A stretch of DNA of 64,000 nt from Aquisalimonas lutea (GTDB taxonomy: Bacteria; Pseudomonadota; Gammaproteobacteria; Nitrococcales; Aquisalimonadaceae), in assembly GCF_030409225.1 (NCBI RefSeq), contig NZ_JAUFPK010000001.1, positions 39,230 through 103,229 of the forward strand, given 5' to 3'. Under the pieces are notes generated by a model. That model ran no database searches, was not told the origin of the DNA, and worked only from the letters and a program-made list of their open reading frames with translations. Of the stretch, positions 7,879-15,773 are shown in pieces (positions within the stretch are counted from its first letter, which is position 1; the number at the start of each line of letters is the position of its first letter). A program made the position numbers and the translations under genes.

Positions 7879-8647
7879 GGGCGGCCGCCTCGTCGCCGGC
7901 ATGCTCGTGGAGCACCCGGTGCGGTACGCCGTGGGCGATGAGCTCCACGGGGCAGCCGTAGGCCTCCGCCAGGTCGGCGTGACTCAGGCGGCCGGAGCCG
8001 TGATAGAACAGACGCCGGTTGACACAGGCGATCTGCTTGACCTGGGCGGCGAAACTGGTGATGTCGTGGGTGATCACCACCACGGGGATGCGCTGGTTGA
8101 GCTCGGCGAGCAGCGATTCCAGTACCTGGCGGGTCTCCACGTCCACGGAGGCCGTGGGCTCGTCCAGGAACAGGATCTCCGGCTCCCCGGCCAGGGCACG
8201 TGCGATCAGGGCGCGCTGGAGCTGCCCGCCGGAGAGCTCGGCCACGGGCACGTCCGCCTGGCGCCCCAGGTGCAGCCGCTCCAGGGTGTGCGCCACGGCC
8301 CGGTGATCGGCCCGCGTGTAGCGCCCGATCCAGCCGCCGCGGCCCAGGCGGCCGGTGAGCACGGCGTCCCGCAGCCGCAGCGGGAAGTTCTTGTCGAAGG
8401 TGGAGAACTGCGGCACGAAGCCGATCGCCCCGCGGGCGATGCCGGACGGCCAGCGGATGGTCCCCCGCCAGGGCGTCTCCAGGCCCAGGATCAGGCGCAG
8501 CAGTGTCGTCTTGCCGCCCCCATTGGGGCCGATGATGGCCAGGAAGTCCCGCGGGCCGATGCGCAGGTCCACGTCCCGGAGAACCGGCTCGCGGTCGTAG
8601 CCGAAGCTCAGCCCCCGGACTTCCAGGATGGCATCGTCGCCGCTCAT
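7871..8647 (-). CDS. znuC: zinc ABC transporter, ATP-binding subunit
   Basis: ATPase that powers zinc import with ZnuB. The 258-aa protein has Walker A GPNGGGKT (40-47), Q-loop FVPQFS (78-83), signature LSGGQ (138-142), Walker B ILFLDEP (158-164) and the switch histidine in VVITHDI. The C-terminal tail after about residue 215 is longer than a bare ATPase core and has several His residues (HEHAGDEAAAHE), as in ZnuC, where it is thought to sense or handle zinc. It overlaps znuA by 4 bp (ATGA) and znuB by 8 bp. Confidence 0.95.
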   Translation of the reverse strand: MSGDDAILEVRGLSFGYDREPVLRDVDLRIGPRDFLAIIGPNGGGKTTLLRLILGLETPWRGTIRWPSGIARGAIGFVPQFSTFDKNFPLRLRDAVLTGRLGRGGWIGRYTRADHRAVAHTLERLHLGRQADVPVAELSGGQLQRALIARALAGEPEILFLDEPTASVDVETRQVLESLLAELNQRIPVVVITHDITSFAAQVKQIACVNRRLFYHGSGRLSHADLAEAYGCPVELIAHGVPHRVLHEHAGDEAAAHE

Positions 8648-9633
8648 CGCGTCTCCGCATCGTGGATCGCCTCGGCGAACCGCCGCAGGTTGCCCGCCCA
8701 GTCCCGGGCCAGGGGATCGGCGGTCGCCACCACGGCGCCGATCTCCTCGGCGATGGTACGGGCGCTGCGCTCGGAGAAGCCCTGCTGGACGAAGATCACC
8801 TGCACCTCCTCCTGTCGCGCCTGCTCGATGAAACCGGCAAGCTGCGACGGCGACGGATCGCGCCCCCCGGATTCGATGGCCACCTGCTCCAGGTCGTAAT
8901 CGCGGGCAAAATACCCCCAGCCCGGATGATTGACAACGAAGCGCCGCCGCTCGAGGCCCCCGAGCAGGTCACGGATGTCCTCGTCCAGGGCGTCGATCTC
9001 CGCGCGCACCGCTTCCAGCCCGTCGCGGTAGTGTGCCTCGCCGGCCGGATCCGCCGCGATCAGGGCCTCGGCGACACGCCCCGCCGCAGCCCGCATGATC
9101 GCCGGCGACACCCACAGGTGGGGGTCCGTCTCGCCGTGGGCATGGCCCTCGTGTCCAGCCTCATCCCCATGCTCCGCGTGGTGTTCGTGGTCGTGGTCGT
9201 GGTCATGGTCGTGCTCGTGGCCGTGCTCGCCAGCCCCGTGCCCGTCGTGGTGCCCCGCGTGATCATCGCCGTGCCCGCCGTGCTCCTGCATGGCCAGCAC
9301 ATCGACGCCCTGCGAAAGATCCACCACCTGCACGTCATCGCGCCGCGACTCCAAGTGCTGGAGGAAACGGCGCTCGAAGGCGAAATCCGGATGCCCGACC
9401 TTGAAGTAGACGCGTGCCTCGTCGAACGCCACCAGCCGCCGCGGCGCCAGCGAGAAGGTATGCGGTGAGCCCCCCGACTCGATCATGACCGAGACATCCA
9501 CCCGGTCGCCGCCGATGCGCTCCACCAGGTAGGCCTGGGGCGGGACGCTGACCGTCACCGGCATGGCCGCCTGGACAGCGGCCGGGAGCAGCAAGGCCAC
9601 CACTGCGGCAAGGCCGCGCACGAGAGCATTCAT
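8644..9633 (-). CDS. znuA: zinc ABC transporter, periplasmic binding protein
   Basis: Periplasmic zinc-capture protein that delivers Zn to ZnuB. The 329-aa sequence has a signal peptide (residues 1 to about 23, cleavage near VQA-AMP). Family zinc ligands are visible at His58 (SPHTF), His172 (DPHLW) and His236 (VNHPGWGY). Between residues 118 and 166 lies a long His/Asp/Glu loop with runs of HDHDHDHDHE, longer and more regular than in many ZnuA proteins. This loop is typical of zinc rather than manganese family members and is thought to gather metal. It is first in the znuACB operon, downstream of a candidate Zur site. Confidence 0.94.
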   Translation of the reverse strand: MNALVRGLAAVVALLLPAAVQAAMPVTVSVPPQAYLVERIGGDRVDVSVMIESGGSPHTFSLAPRRLVAFDEARVYFKVGHPDFAFERRFLQHLESRRDDVQVVDLSQGVDVLAMQEHGGHGDDHAGHHDGHGAGEHGHEHDHDHDHDHEHHAEHGDEAGHEGHAHGETDPHLWVSPAIMRAAAGRVAEALIAADPAGEAHYRDGLEAVRAEIDALDEDIRDLLGGLERRRFVVNHPGWGYFARDYDLEQVAIESGGRDPSPSQLAGFIEQARQEEVQVIFVQQGFSERSARTIAEEIGAVVATADPLARDWAGNLRRFAEAIHDAETR

Positions 9634-9809: not shown

Positions 9810-10241
9810 TCAGGCCACGCGCTGCTTTTCCCGGATTTCCTCCAGGGTCTTGCAGTCGATGCACAGCGTCGCTGTCGGCCGCGCCTCGAGACGCCGCAGC
9901 CCGATTTCCACGCCGCACTGCTCGCAGTAGCCGTAGTCCTCGCGGCGGATCGCCTCGAGCGTCTGATCGATCTTGCGGATCAGCTTGCGCTCGCGATCCC
10001 GCGTGCGCAGCTCCAGGGCGAATTCCTCCTCCTGGGTGGCACGATCCGCCGGGTCCGCATAGTTGGTGGCATCGTCGCGCATGTGATGGACGGTCCGCTC
10101 GACCTCCTCCTGGAGCTGGCGCTTCCACGCCAGCAACAGCTGGCGGAAATGCTCCAGCTGCTCGGCGTTCATGTACTCCTCGCCGTCACTCGCCTGGTAC
10201 GGCGTGAAGTCCTCAACCGGCATCCTGTTTTTCTGATTCAT
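9810..10241 (-). CDS. dksA: RNA polymerase-binding transcription factor DksA
   Basis: Binds the RNA polymerase secondary channel and, with ppGpp, reshapes rRNA and amino-acid gene transcription. The 143-aa protein has the coiled-coil tip motif DPADRA with acidic residues Asp63 and Asp66, followed by [10 protein letters not shown]. It also has a complete four-cysteine zinc finger (Cys106, 109, 127, 130), so it is the zinc-containing form, not the Cys-poor DksA2. The start at 10241 has a strong GGAGGAACTGCC leader; an upstream ATG at 10280 adds residues foreign to the family. Strong tandem hairpins follow the gene. Confidence 0.95.
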
Positions 10242-10421
10242 GGCAGTTCCTCCTTCGTTCACGCCCCGCCAAAGTGTCATGGCCGGCTTCCCTGCCCGTA
10301 CGAGCGGGGCGCCTCCGCGACCCGGGTGACAAAGCCTTTCCGGGGCCGCGCATTCATGCTGCCGTCCGCCACGGACGGCTCCTTTATAGCAGCGCCTCGC
10401 TGCGAGCGCAAAGCCCGCTGC

Positions 10422-11510
10422 TTACTCCGTGCGCTGCTCGAGAACCCCCTGCAGCCGGGACGCCATGTCCCGCACCGAGCGCTCCGTGGTCTCCCAGTCG
10501 ATGCAGGCATCGGTAATGGAGACCCCGTAGGCCAACTCGGAGACATCGTCGGTGAGCTTCTGGTTCCCCCAGCCGATATTGCTCTCGACCATCATCCCCA
10601 CAAGGGAGCGATTGCCTTCCGTGATCTGATTCACGAGATTGTCGAGAACCAGCGGCTGCAGCGCCGGGTCCTTGTTGCTGTTGGCGTGGCTGCAATCCAC
10701 GACGATATTCCGCGGCAGCCCGCCCTCGGTAAGCTCCTTTTCGCACAGGGCAACGCTCACGGAGTCATAGTTGGGGGTTCCACCGCCGCCACGCAAGACG
10801 ATGTGGCCGTACGGGTTGCCGCGGGTGCGCACGATGGAGCACTGGCCCTGGTAGTTGATCCCCAGGAAGCTGTGGGGGTTGGCGACGGAGTGCAGGGCAT
10901 TGATCGCCGTCTGCAGGTTGCCGTCCGTGCCGTTCTTGAAGCCCACCGGCGTGGACAGGCCACTGGCCATCTCCCGGTGCGTCTGGGACTCCGTGGTGCG
11001 CGCGCCGATGGCCGTCCAGGTGATGAGGTCCTGGATGTACTGCGGGATAATCGGGTCCAGCGCCTCGGTGGCGGTGGGCAGTCCCATCTCGGCGCACTCC
11101 AGCAACAGCTGGCGGGCGTTGTACAGGCCCTCGTCGATGCGGAAGGAGTCGTCCATGTGCGGATCGTTGATGAAGCCCTTCCAGCCGACGGTGGTGCGCG
11201 GCTTCTCGAAGTACACGCGCATGATCACCAGCACGGAATCGGCCACCTCGTCGGCCAGGGCCTTGAGCCGCTGCGCGTAGTCACGCGCGGCCGCCATGTC
11301 GTGGATGGAGCACGGCCCGACCACCAGGAAAACGCGCGGATCGCGGCGGTCGAGGATGTTCTGCACCGCTCGGCGGCCGCCGAGCACGGTCTCCCGCGCC
11401 GCCGCGCTCAGCGGCAGGCGCCCGTGGACCTCCTCCGGCGTGGGCAGCAACTCCTGGGTAACGACGTTGACGTCGTCAATCGAGCCATTGACGGCAGCTG
11501 GATCAACCAT
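10422..11510 (-). CDS. 3-deoxy-7-phosphoheptulonate synthase (class I)
   Basis: DAHP synthase, the first step of the shikimate pathway: condenses phosphoenolpyruvate and erythrose 4-phosphate. The 362-aa protein has the class I alpha motifs GPCSIHD, EKPRTTVGWKG, GARTTESQTHREMASG and VDCSHANSNKD. It is slightly longer than E. coli AroG (350 aa). Which aromatic amino acid feeds back on it (AroF, AroG or AroH type) cannot be read safely from the sequence, so no symbol is given. It lies 81 bp downstream of the ClpX-like gene on the same strand. The start at 11510 follows AGGTGAG. Confidence 0.94.
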   Translation of the reverse strand: MVDPAAVNGSIDDVNVVTQELLPTPEEVHGRLPLSAAARETVLGGRRAVQNILDRRDPRVFLVVGPCSIHDMAAARDYAQRLKALADEVADSVLVIMRVYFEKPRTTVGWKGFINDPHMDDSFRIDEGLYNARQLLLECAEMGLPTATEALDPIIPQYIQDLITWTAIGARTTESQTHREMASGLSTPVGFKNGTDGNLQTAINALHSVANPHSFLGINYQGQCSIVRTRGNPYGHIVLRGGGGTPNYDSVSVALCEKELTEGGLPRNIVVDCSHANSNKDPALQPLVLDNLVNQITEGNRSLVGMMVESNIGWGNQKLTDDVSELAYGVSITDACIDWETTERSVRDMASRLQGVLEQRTE

Positions 11511-11591: not shown

Positions 11592-12761
11592 CTACGCTGC
11601 CGACGAATCGGCGAAGACGCGGCGGCGGGGTACGAGCCGGGCCGCCACCTTGTCGCCGTCCACGTCCACATTCACGCGCTCGACGTCCGCGCGTCCCGGC
11701 ACCTCGAACAGGGCGTCGCGCAGGACGCCCTCGACCTCCGCGAACAGCCCGCGCGCGCCCATGCCCCGCCGCAGGGCGTTGCCGGCCATCCGCTCCAGTG
11801 CCGCGCCGGAGACCTGCAGCGCGCAGCCGTCCGCGGCCAGCAGCGCCTCCATCTGGCGAACCGGGGCATCCGGCGGCTCGGTGAGCAGCCGGCGGAGGAC
11901 GTCGATACCGGGGGGATCCAGGGGCACATGGACGGGGAACCGGCCGACCAGCTCCGGGATCAGGCCCTGCCGCAGCAGCCAGCGGGCGTCGTCCTCCCCC
12001 GGGCGCGCGCCGCCCGCGGCTCTCCCGTCCCGGGCGAACACGCCGCCGCCGACGAACAGCACGTCCCGCGTGCTGACGCTCAGCCAGCGGCCGTTGGGGC
12101 GCTGCACGCCGACCCGGCGCCCCTCGAGGCACTGCAGGAGGGTCTGCTGCACGCCGGCCCCGCGCCCGTCCGGGTCCGGCCCGCCCAGCTTGTCCAGCTC
12201 GTCCAGGTAGACGATGCCGCGGGCGGCGCAGGCCGGATCCCAGTCGCAGTCCCGCAGCAGGGCCTGGATCACGCTCTCGATGCCGGCCCCCTGATGGCCC
12301 GACGGGGTCAGCGTGGTGGCGTCCACCGCCGCGAAAGGCACGTCCAGGCACCGCGCCAGGGACTCCAGCAACCGGGTCTTGCCGCTGCCGGTGGGCCCGC
12401 TGAGCAGTACGTTGCACTTGCCGGGGCCCGCGTCGGTGCCGTGCATGCCCCGCCAGGCGAGCCGCTTGTAGTGATTGTGGACCTGCACCGCCAGTACGCG
12501 CTTGGCCTGCTCCTGGCCGACCACGCGGTGGTCCAGCCAGGCGTGGAGCCGGGCCGGGGACGGCAGCGCGCGCACGCGCTCGCGCAGGATCGCGTGCTGA
12601 TGATCCGCCAGCTCGTCCGCGAGAACGGCCGCGCAGTCGTTGCACATGGCGGCTTCGTGGCCGGCCACGAAGCCGTCGACGGCCTCGGCGTCGCGGCGGC
12701 AGAACGCGCAGATCTCGATGCTCGTGACAAGATCGTCGTGACGAAAGGCGGACAGGTCCAT
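11592..12761 (-). CDS. divergent ClpX-like AAA+ ATPase lacking pore and ClpP loops
   Basis: Clearly related to ClpX across its length (389 aa). It has an N-terminal zinc finger (Cys18, 21, 40, 43), Walker A GPTGSGKT (122-129), Walker B IVYLDELD (183-190), an arginine finger in GLIPELVGR (Arg274) and sensor-2 GAR (335-337). Three substrate- and partner-handling parts differ. The pore-1 loop GYVG of ClpX reads GHQG (155-158), so the aromatic residue that grips substrate is gone. The RKH loop is deleted (NGRW at 223-226). The segment that carries the IGF loop for docking ClpP is missing, about 25 residues shorter between FAR (242-244) and GLIPE. Known ClpX biology says these parts are needed for unfolding with ClpP, so I infer an ATPase with a different job. 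It is not the canonical clpX, which sits beside clpP in most genomes. Confidence 0.85.
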   Translation of the reverse strand: MDLSAFRHDDLVTSIEICAFCRRDAEAVDGFVAGHEAAMCNDCAAVLADELADHQHAILRERVRALPSPARLHAWLDHRVVGQEQAKRVLAVQVHNHYKRLAWRGMHGTDAGPGKCNVLLSGPTGSGKTRLLESLARCLDVPFAAVDATTLTPSGHQGAGIESVIQALLRDCDWDPACAARGIVYLDELDKLGGPDPDGRGAGVQQTLLQCLEGRRVGVQRPNGRWLSVSTRDVLFVGGGVFARDGRAAGGARPGEDDARWLLRQGLIPELVGRFPVHVPLDPPGIDVLRRLLTEPPDAPVRQMEALLAADGCALQVSGAALERMAGNALRRGMGARGLFAEVEGVLRDALFEVPGRADVERVNVDVDGDKVAARLVPRRRVFADSSAA

Positions 12762-12931: not shown

Positions 12932-13198
12932 ATGGCCGTCGATCGCAAGCTGCTCGAGATTCTCTGCTGCCCCGTCACCAAGGTCCCCGTGGAGCCCCTG
13001 CCCCGGGAACGCCTCGACGCGCTCAACGCGCTGGTCGAGCAGGGGCAGGCGCTCTACCAGGACGGCACCCCCGTGACCGGGCCGGTGACCGAGGCCCTGA
13101 TCACGGAGAACGGCGAACGGATCTACCTGGTGGAGGACGGCATTCCGGTGATGCTGGAAGAGCGCGCCCTCACCGCGCGGGGGCTCGGCTGGATCTGA
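12932..13198 (+). CDS. Trm112-like protein (YcaR/UPF0434 family)
   Basis: Small 88-aa protein beginning MAVDRKLLEILCCPVTK, with the family CCPVT motif, a middle insert and the C-terminal ENGERIYLVEDGIPVML signature. Bacterial members (YcaR) have a Trm112-type fold. In eukaryotes and archaea Trm112 stabilises and activates several methyltransferases, including Mtq2, which methylates the termination factor. Only the first two cysteines are present, so zinc binding as in yeast Trm112 is unlikely. It ends 40 bp before prmC on the same strand. A partnership with PrmC is suggested only by this position. Confidence 0.88.
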   Translation: MAVDRKLLEILCCPVTKVPVEPLPRERLDALNALVEQGQALYQDGTPVTGPVTEALITENGERIYLVEDGIPVMLEERALTARGLGWI

Positions 13199-13238: not shown

Positions 13239-14060
13239 ATGCAACTGCTGCGGCAGGGCCGCAACCGGCTAGCGGGACGCGAGGCCGACTGGCTGCTCGC
13301 CCATGCGGCCGGGCAGCCGGCGGCCCTGCTGCGGGCCGGCGTGGACGAGGCCGCCCCGTCGCGGGTCGCCGCGGCCTTCCAGCGGCTGCTGGACCGGCGG
13401 GCCGGCGGCGAGCCTCTCGCCTACCTGCTGGGCACGCAGCCGTTCCGGTCGCTGGACCTGGCGGTCAGCCCGGATGTGCTCATCCCGCGCCCGGAGACGG
13501 AGCAGCTCGTGGACCACGCCCTCGCGCTGATGCCCCGGGATGCGCCGGTCCGGGCGCTGGACCTGGGGACCGGCAGCGGCGCCATCGCCCTGGCCCTGGC
13601 CAGTGAGCGGCCGCGCTGGCACGTCACCGCGGTGGAGCACAGCGCCGAGGCCCTGGCCGTGGCCCGCGCCAACGGCGAGCGCCTGGGCCTGGCCGTCGAC
13701 TGGCTCGCCGGTGACTGGTTCAGCGCGGTAACGACAGGGCCCTTCGACCTGATCGTCAGCAACCCGCCCTACGTGGCCGCGGACGATCCCGATCTGGCCG
13801 CCGAGGTCGCCGCCCACGAGCCGCCAACGGCCCTGCGGGCGGGCGCGGACGGCCTGGCGGCGCTGCGGATCATCGCCGGCGGGGCGCCGGCGCACCTGCG
13901 CCCGGGCGGCTGGCTGATGGTCGAGCACGGGGCCCGGCAGGCGGCGGCCGTGCGGGGGCTGCTGCAGCGCGCCGGCATGACCGCGGTGGCCAGCCAGCAC
14001 GATCACCAGGGCCATGACCGTTTTACCGCCGGCCGGGCGGAGGAGAGCGACAATGGATGA
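13239..14060 (+). CDS. prmC: release factor glutamine methyltransferase
   Basis: Methylates the glutamine of the GGQ motif in release factors RF1 and RF2 using S-adenosylmethionine. The 273-aa protein has an N-terminal helical domain, the linker motif LIPRPETEQLVD (81-92), the SAM-binding motif DLGTGSGAIALAL (108-120) and the catalytic NPPY (175-178). The N-terminus is slightly shorter than E. coli PrmC; the frame stays open upstream but has no better start. prmC commonly follows hemA-prfA. Here it is about 6 kb away, with the znu, dksA, aro and clpX-like genes in between, although moeB still follows it. Confidence 0.94.
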   Translation: MQLLRQGRNRLAGREADWLLAHAAGQPAALLRAGVDEAAPSRVAAAFQRLLDRRAGGEPLAYLLGTQPFRSLDLAVSPDVLIPRPETEQLVDHALALMPRDAPVRALDLGTGSGAIALALASERPRWHVTAVEHSAEALAVARANGERLGLAVDWLAGDWFSAVTTGPFDLIVSNPPYVAADDPDLAAEVAAHEPPTALRAGADGLAALRIIAGGAPAHLRPGGWLMVEHGARQAAAVRGLLQRAGMTAVASQHDHQGHDRFTAGRAEESDNG

Positions 14061-14891: not shown

Positions 14892-15773
14892 TCAGTGCAG
14901 CGTCGTCTCCGGCGGGCCGATACCGCCCTCGCTGAACAGCTGCTCGACATCCACGGCGTCGAAGCGGTAGGTGGTGCCGCAGAACTCGCACGCCGCCTCG
15001 ATCTGGCCCTGCTCGGCGAGAATGTCCCGGGCCTCCGCGTAGCCCAGACCCTGGAGCACGCCGGCCAGGCGCTCGCGGGAGCAGTGGCAGCCGAAGCGCA
15101 CCGGATCCGCCGGGAACACGCGGATATCCTCCTCGTGGAAGAGCCGCCGGATCACTTCCTCGGGACCGAGCCCGAGCAGCTCGTCCTCGGTGATGGTCCC
15201 GGCCAGGTGCTCGGCCCGGTTCCAGGCATCGGCATCGTCGGCGTCCTCGCCCGGCAGTCGCTGGAGCAGCAGCCCCGCCGCCCGCTCGCCGTCGCAGGCG
15301 AGCCACAGACGGGTGGGCAGCTGCTCCGACTGGGCGAAGTAGTTCTCCACCGCCGCGTTCAGGCGCTCGGTCTCCAGGGGCACGATGCCCTGGTAGCGGT
15401 TGCCGCCGTCCTCGGGATCGATGGTGATCGCCAGGTAGCCGCCGCTGCACAGGGCATGCAGCGGCGTATCCGCCGCCGGCTCGCCCTCGAGCCGGGCCAG
15501 GCCGCGCAGCTCCTGCTCGTGGCTCGCCCGCGCCACCAGCATAGGCACCGGCCCCTCGCCCTGCATTTGCAGGATCAGCGCGCCGCGGAACTTGACGATG
15601 GACGACAGCAGCCCGGCCGCCGCCAGGGCCTCGCCCAGCAGCCGCGTAACCGCTTGCGGATAGGACCGGCGCGCGAGCACCTCGGCGAGGGTCTGATCCA
15701 GGTGGATCAGCTCCCCCCGCACGTTGGCGTGCTCGAAGACGAAGCGCTGCAGGGTGTCGGGACGGATGGGCAT
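14892..15773 (-). CDS. hslO: redox-regulated chaperone Hsp33
   Basis: Holdase chaperone switched on by oxidative unfolding, when its zinc centre loses metal and forms disulfides. The 293-aa protein has the four zinc cysteines Cys229 and Cys231 (CHC) and Cys262 and Cys265 (CEFC) in the C-terminal domain, and the core motif YFAQSEQLPTRLWL. Length matches the family. It converges on moeB and ends just past the heptanucleotide repeat. The 16-bp gap from gatB suggests read-through from the gatCAB operon. Confidence 0.95.
   Translation of the reverse strand: MPIRPDTLQRFVFEHANVRGELIHLDQTLAEVLARRSYPQAVTRLLGEALAAAGLLSSIVKFRGALILQMQGEGPVPMLVARASHEQELRGLARLEGEPAADTPLHALCSGGYLAITIDPEDGGNRYQGIVPLETERLNAAVENYFAQSEQLPTRLWLACDGERAAGLLLQRLPGEDADDADAWNRAEHLAGTITEDELLGLGPEEVIRRLFHEEDIRVFPADPVRFGCHCSRERLAGVLQGLGYAEARDILAEQGQIEAACEFCGTTYRFDAVDVEQLFSEGGIGPPETTLH

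Follow-up and report, generated by a model that had tools for sequence, protein, structure and literature searches.

Additional ClpX copies have been described in several bacteria. According to the accessible part of one report, Myxococcus xanthus carries ClpX2 and ClpX3 away from clpP; each can be deleted singly, with condition-specific phenotypes, and ClpX3, which has neither the RKH motif nor the zinc domain, aids thermal tolerance (PMC11423568). Azotobacter vinelandii has a second ClpX, ClpX2, with the specialized clients NifB and NifEN (Martinez-Noel et al. 2011, as cited in the accessible part of PMC3916325). Mitochondrial ClpX and yeast Mcx1 are ClpX proteins that act without ClpP (PMC7077987, PMC8361296), and remodeling by mitochondrial ClpX needs intact pore loops (PMC7077987). 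Here, we analyzed a stretch of 64,000 nucleotides from Aquisalimonas lutea (hereafter, the window), in which a gene linked to aroG encodes a divergent ClpX paralog. The original prediction, made from the letters of the window alone, knew of no system of this type, which overstated the lack of precedent, as extra bacterial ClpX copies, one of them without RKH, and ClpP-free action of ClpX are on record. With middling confidence, we read the product as an accessory ATPase that is not essential and no longer coupled to ClpP, which would have a narrow or weak remodeling role and be on a path to catalytic and gene loss.

The paralog (11592..12761, minus strand, as are all its features below) is a complete open reading frame with an ATG start and 389 amino acids, identified by profile matches, alignment, and an AlphaFold model. 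ClpX models were its best family matches, although it scored below the NCBIfam equivalog cut-offs (NF003745: E 1.5e-86, 291 bits, cut-off 359; TIGR00382: E 3.6e-79, 267 bits, cut-off 370.75). A phmmer search against solved structures pointed to ClpX from various bacteria (best E 9.1e-74), and the AlphaFold model, built from 23 orthologs (mean predicted local distance difference test score 88), had ClpX chains as its nearest solved structures. To assign motifs, we aligned the sequence with ClpX proteins of known structure and with the canonical ClpX of the same genome. The N-terminal C4 zinc-binding domain characteristic of ClpX (residues 17–46; 12624..12713) was present, with Cys18, 21, 40, and 43 invariant in the alignment and a Pfam zf-C4_ClpX score of 25.5 bits, slightly short of the cut-off of 27. 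The AAA+ motifs of the HCLR type were also complete: Walker A GPTGSGKT (residues 122–129; 12375..12398), Walker B IVYLDE (residues 183–188, with VYLDE at 184–188; 12198..12215), T231 in the sensor-1 region, the arginine-finger segment IPELVGRFPV (residues 268–277, R274; 11931..11960), and sensor-2 GARGL (residues 335–339; 11745..11759). Conversely, all three loop elements of ClpX were lacking. The pore-1 loop reads GHQG instead of GYVG (residues 155–158; 12288..12299), the place of the RKH loop is shortened and without RKH (residues 215–229; 12075..12119), and the stretch that carries the ClpP-docking IGF loop, 45 residues long in canonical ClpX, is reduced to 22 residues without IGF (approximately residues 241–262; 11976..12041). 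Pore-2 is shortened as well. The alignment, including the congeners G001, G002, and G004, thus bore out the anatomy originally described, namely a ClpX-like zinc finger, Walker A/B, arginine finger, and sensor 2 combined with GHQG and the absence of RKH and IGF. A sequencing or assembly error was rejected because the same losses occurred in four assemblies (the window's genome and these three congeners).

By its sequence, the gene is a second clpX, a ClpX by descent that lacks three of the sequence features defining a working ClpX. In trees with HslU as the outgroup, the paralog grouped with ClpX sequences, indicating descent within the ClpX family. In such trees with true ClpX, which the original prediction had proposed, it formed a monophyletic clade of its own (support 97/97; 93/99 in a tree with more long branches), with branches far longer than those of canonical ClpX. 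We rejected an identity as HslU, given the length of 389 residues, the ClpX-like layout including the zinc finger, the best matches to ClpX, and the position in the tree; the intermediate-domain and hslV-neighbor signature of HslU was not found, no hslV lay among the paralog's neighbors, and a separate HslU match was located at G000:C1:701244-702494. The paralog is not the sole ClpX of the genome either. The expected canonical clpX beside clpP was found on contig C13, after the trigger factor gene and clpP and before lon (tig-clpP-clpX-lon), and its product shares 36–43% identity with the paralog over matched stretches.

We next consider its distribution. A search for related loci with the single protein returned two close matches only, from Aquisalimonas metagenome-assembled genomes (66–67% protein identity). 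The search for the paralog took in 54 genomes of the order, and the wider sample comprised 276 genomes of the class. Within the order, 26 of the 54 genomes harbored an intact paralog (7 of 14 in the window's family and 19 in four other families), and one more, G040, carried a pseudogene. Most genomes of the class sample yielded just one strong ClpX match; extra ClpX copies occurred in nine genomes from other orders, all at other loci. Other Gammaproteobacteria sporadically have a second ClpX; we rejected it as the origin of the paralog, as the two form separate clades at different loci. This sporadic subfamily (L090-L098; G304, G265, G172, G174, G199, G126, G271, G219, and G095) has GYVG, mostly IGFH-type loops, and no RKH; it forms a clade of its own and is possibly related to the described ClpX2 proteins. 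In addition, G006, a member of the window's family, encodes a third ClpX with GYVG and IGF at an unrelated locus (L055:9019-10239), besides its canonical and eroded aroG-linked copies.

The loop elements varied in a graded manner among carriers. GYVG together with either IGF or GVGF is retained in families f2, f3, and f4, which have no RKH motif, and family f5 has GY[ATNS]G or GFAG at pore-1 and GVGF or GAGF as the docking motif. The four species of the window's genus read GHQG, GVQG, GFQG, and GHVG; all of them lack IGF, and their ATPase residues are intact. The pore position is thus H, V, F, and H, so that the missing aromatic is not universal even in the genus, and the notion of a conserved new pore specificity does not hold. 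Copies from g2 and g3, the sister genera (L046:8889-10058, L053:8485-9834, and L054:8692-9858), have lost the Walker B glutamate, DE having become DN in one of them and DG in two, and the L053 copy has also lost the sensor-2 arginine and part of the zinc finger. Six of the family's seven copies retain the zinc finger. G011, a sister-genus copy with defective Walker B, still has the pore tyrosine, indicating that the elements were lost in different orders. A single directed change accounts for such an assortment less well than eroding constraint does. Besides a lone ClpX in the genome, the original prediction had named two observations that would speak against it. One, same-slot relatives that keep GYVG and IGF, was made in other families, so the losses are lineage-specific, but they are shared by four congeners and do not reflect a sequencing error; the other, loss of ATPase residues in relatives, applies to the Walker B glutamate of the sister genera but not to the four congeners.

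We estimated the ratio of nonsynonymous to synonymous substitution rates (dN/dS) by NG86, comparing four carriers within the genus. The paralog gave 0.21–0.36, with 0.21 in the least saturated pair, and for the same carriers the values were 0–0.04 for canonical clpX, 0.06–0.13 for aroG, and 0.28–0.36 for prmC; the paralog was about ten times less constrained than canonical ClpX. In loop-bearing lineages, the paralog gave 0.09–0.23. The G006/G009 pair was near synonymous saturation, and its dN/dS is unreliable. Recent relaxation inside the genus was not supported, as aroG-normalized dN/dS was similar to that of loop-bearing lineages. All ATPase residues were invariant in the four congeners, and the IGF region (residues 241–260; 1 of 20 positions invariant), the RKH region (5 of 15), and pore-2 (4 of 10) were among the most variable parts. 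Because dN/dS is well below 1 and the catalytic positions are invariant, selection still acts on the product in this genus, albeit more weakly than on ClpX. This agrees with the purifying selection originally proposed, whereas the original interpretation is weakened by the sister genera, which lost the Walker B glutamate. Neutral decay, in which the gene would already be functionless and heading for loss, is improbable in light of these values: repeated gene loss, the G040 pseudogene, motif erosion, and the Walker B losses in relatives would fit it, but a dN/dS of 0.21–0.36 within the genus and the invariance of every catalytic residue in four species do not. By itself, an unbroken frame does not prove that the gene is selected, since approximately 12–15% of simulated neutral copies remained stop-free in such GC-rich DNA.

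The paralog is dispensable, because the catalytic glutamate was lost in sister genera and the gene itself in several lineages. In the congener G003 (rated 100% complete), aroG and trm112 stand opposite each other across approximately 320 bp that contain neither the paralog nor, at E 0.01, a remnant of it. The same clean absence was observed in G005, G008, G007, G010, G013, and four f4 genomes, making 10 genomes tested in all, including G003. The G040 pseudogene contains stops, frame changes, and an internal deletion, with its middle at contig ends (L066:3800-4565 and L062:4800-5793); in G036 and G042, which are closely related to G040, the gene is intact.

The carriers share nearly one slot. 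In the window, aroG (10425..11510, minus strand; DAHP synthase, PF00793) lies downstream of the paralog on the same strand, an adjacency found in nearly all carriers, and is followed by dksA (9813..10280, minus strand). On the other side and divergent from the paralog are a small trm112-like gene (12932..13195, plus strand), named from its sequence with no Pfam match at E 1e-10, and prmC, a release-factor methyltransferase gene (13239..14057, plus strand). Across carriers, dksA-aroG-[paralog] occupies one strand and trm112-prmC is divergent, with hemA-prfA and gatAB further out. In one exception, G014, the paralog-trm112-prmC piece is inverted relative to aroG, leaving the paralog apart from it; in the other, G023, aroG was not seen adjoining the paralog, and the copy is cut by a contig end. 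A listing of conserved neighbors, suggested at the outset, thus yielded aroG-dksA and trm112-prmC in a nearly constant slot. Contrary to the original view, no dedicated conserved partner gene was found among these neighbors, which are housekeeping genes whose order is kept without the paralog. AroG or DksA as a specific client was rejected, as nothing beyond adjacency pointed to either and the paralog is apart from aroG in G014.

These observations bear on whether the product is a dedicated ClpP-independent remodeler of one specific partner, comparable to mitochondrial ClpX activating ALAS. The strict conservation of the ATPase and the zinc finger in four congeners, rapid change along the stem that then gave way to steady constraint, and the constant position upstream of aroG and dksA are compatible with such a role. 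However, G003 lost the gene while keeping aroG, trm112, and prmC, the pore residue is not fixed, the sister genera lack the catalytic glutamate, and the remodeling of ALAS by ClpX requires intact pore loops (PMC7077987). We therefore regard this role as doubtful. Of the remodeling originally proposed, the independence from ClpP stands as likely without an IGF loop, whereas the single partner is at odds with the varying pore residue (H/V/F/H), the loss in G003, and the lack of a conserved dedicated partner.

Two other genes near the paralog are worth recording. A ZnuA-type periplasmic zinc-binding-like protein, recognized by reading, is encoded at 8644-9633 of the window (minus strand); it has a long His/Asp-rich stretch and adjoins ABC ATPase and permease open reading frames. 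The redox chaperone Hsp33 (14895-15773, minus strand) lies within the conserved block, three genes past the trm112 side of the paralog, and no sign of a functional link between the two was seen at the locus.

Under the preferred reading of a dispensable, ClpP-uncoupled accessory ATPase, a second clpX took its place between aroG-dksA and trm112-prmC when the order had not yet divided into its families, and it has been passed on vertically since. The other families preserve its ancestral form, with GYVG at pore-1 and an IGF loop; this form probably worked with ClpP as an accessory unfoldase but had already ceased to recognize ssrA-type tags via RKH. Uncoupling from ClpP would have followed in the window's family, where the IGF, RKH, and pore-1 elements presumably disappeared along a stem that evolved fast. 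Within the window's genus, the protein most likely continues to form an ATPase ring, a putative hexamer, that may recruit a limited client set via its zinc-binding domain and loosen or hold these clients without processive threading or degradation. Docking to ClpP in the known way is not expected because the IGF loop is missing, and neither ssrA-type tag reading nor firm threading is expected because RKH is absent and the pore-1 residue is variable; ClpP independence is accordingly likely as judged from the motifs.

Several points weigh against this reading. The product may dock to ClpP via another surface, and even weak client remodeling is uncertain for a protein lacking the pore aromatic and RKH. 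Conversely, the invariant ATPase residues and a dN/dS like that of prmC speak against simple decay and would be compatible with a true specialized role. In a stronger form of such a role, which we think rather unlikely, a ClpP-independent ring ATPase in Aquisalimonas-type bacteria would remodel or regulate a specific partner without the pore aromatic, and the dead version of the sister genera would be kept as a scaffold or ClpX modulator. Alternatively, the product could join canonical ClpX in mixed hexamers or in dimers formed through the zinc domain; such subunits, devoid of IGF, RKH, and pore-1 contacts, would damp or retune ClpXP. None of the active elements would be indispensable for such a function, not even the Walker B glutamate that the sister genera lack, and the widely retained zinc finger is a dimerization domain in ClpX. 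Nevertheless, it does not require the ATPase residues that are invariant in the window's genus, and identity to canonical ClpX is low, which makes it improbable.

Whichever role applies, the paralog should not be annotated as a ClpP partner; annotation pipelines may call such genes ClpX although cooperation with ClpP is improbable. One order thus holds, in one slot, a series leading from a near-complete ClpX through the loss of tag recognition, docking, and pore grip to the loss of the catalytic glutamate and of the gene. This natural series allows tests of which ClpX parts serve which activity and of how a proteolytic motor becomes a pseudo-enzyme.

Compared with known systems, the paralog shares with canonical bacterial ClpX the zinc-binding domain, Walker A/B, sensor 1, arginine finger, sensor 2, and overall fold, but differs in lacking the IGF docking loop and RKH motif, in having GHQG for GYVG, in scoring below the equivalog cut-offs, and in lying away from clpP. 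Like Myxococcus ClpX2 and ClpX3, it is an extra copy away from clpP, and like ClpX3 it has no RKH; however, it retains the N-terminal zinc domain that ClpX3 lacks and belongs to a different lineage, the likeness being one of published description, in its accessible part, rather than of sequence. Azotobacter ClpX2 is likewise a second ClpX in a gammaproteobacterium, but the accessible part of PMC3916325, on whose description this comparison rests, presents it as proteolytic under nitrogen fixation. Mitochondrial ClpX and Mcx1 differ in that the pore aromatic is not conserved in the paralog; of the intact pore loops and ATPase that mark a remodeler of the mitochondrial type, the ATPase motifs are kept and the pore-1 aromatic is not. 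Neither an aroG-linked ClpX nor a bacterial ClpX with all three elements lost came up in the open-access literature searched, which takes in few subscription papers. What appears to be new relative to the known extra ClpX copies is therefore an aroG-linked, order-specific variant with loss of pore-1, RKH, and IGF.
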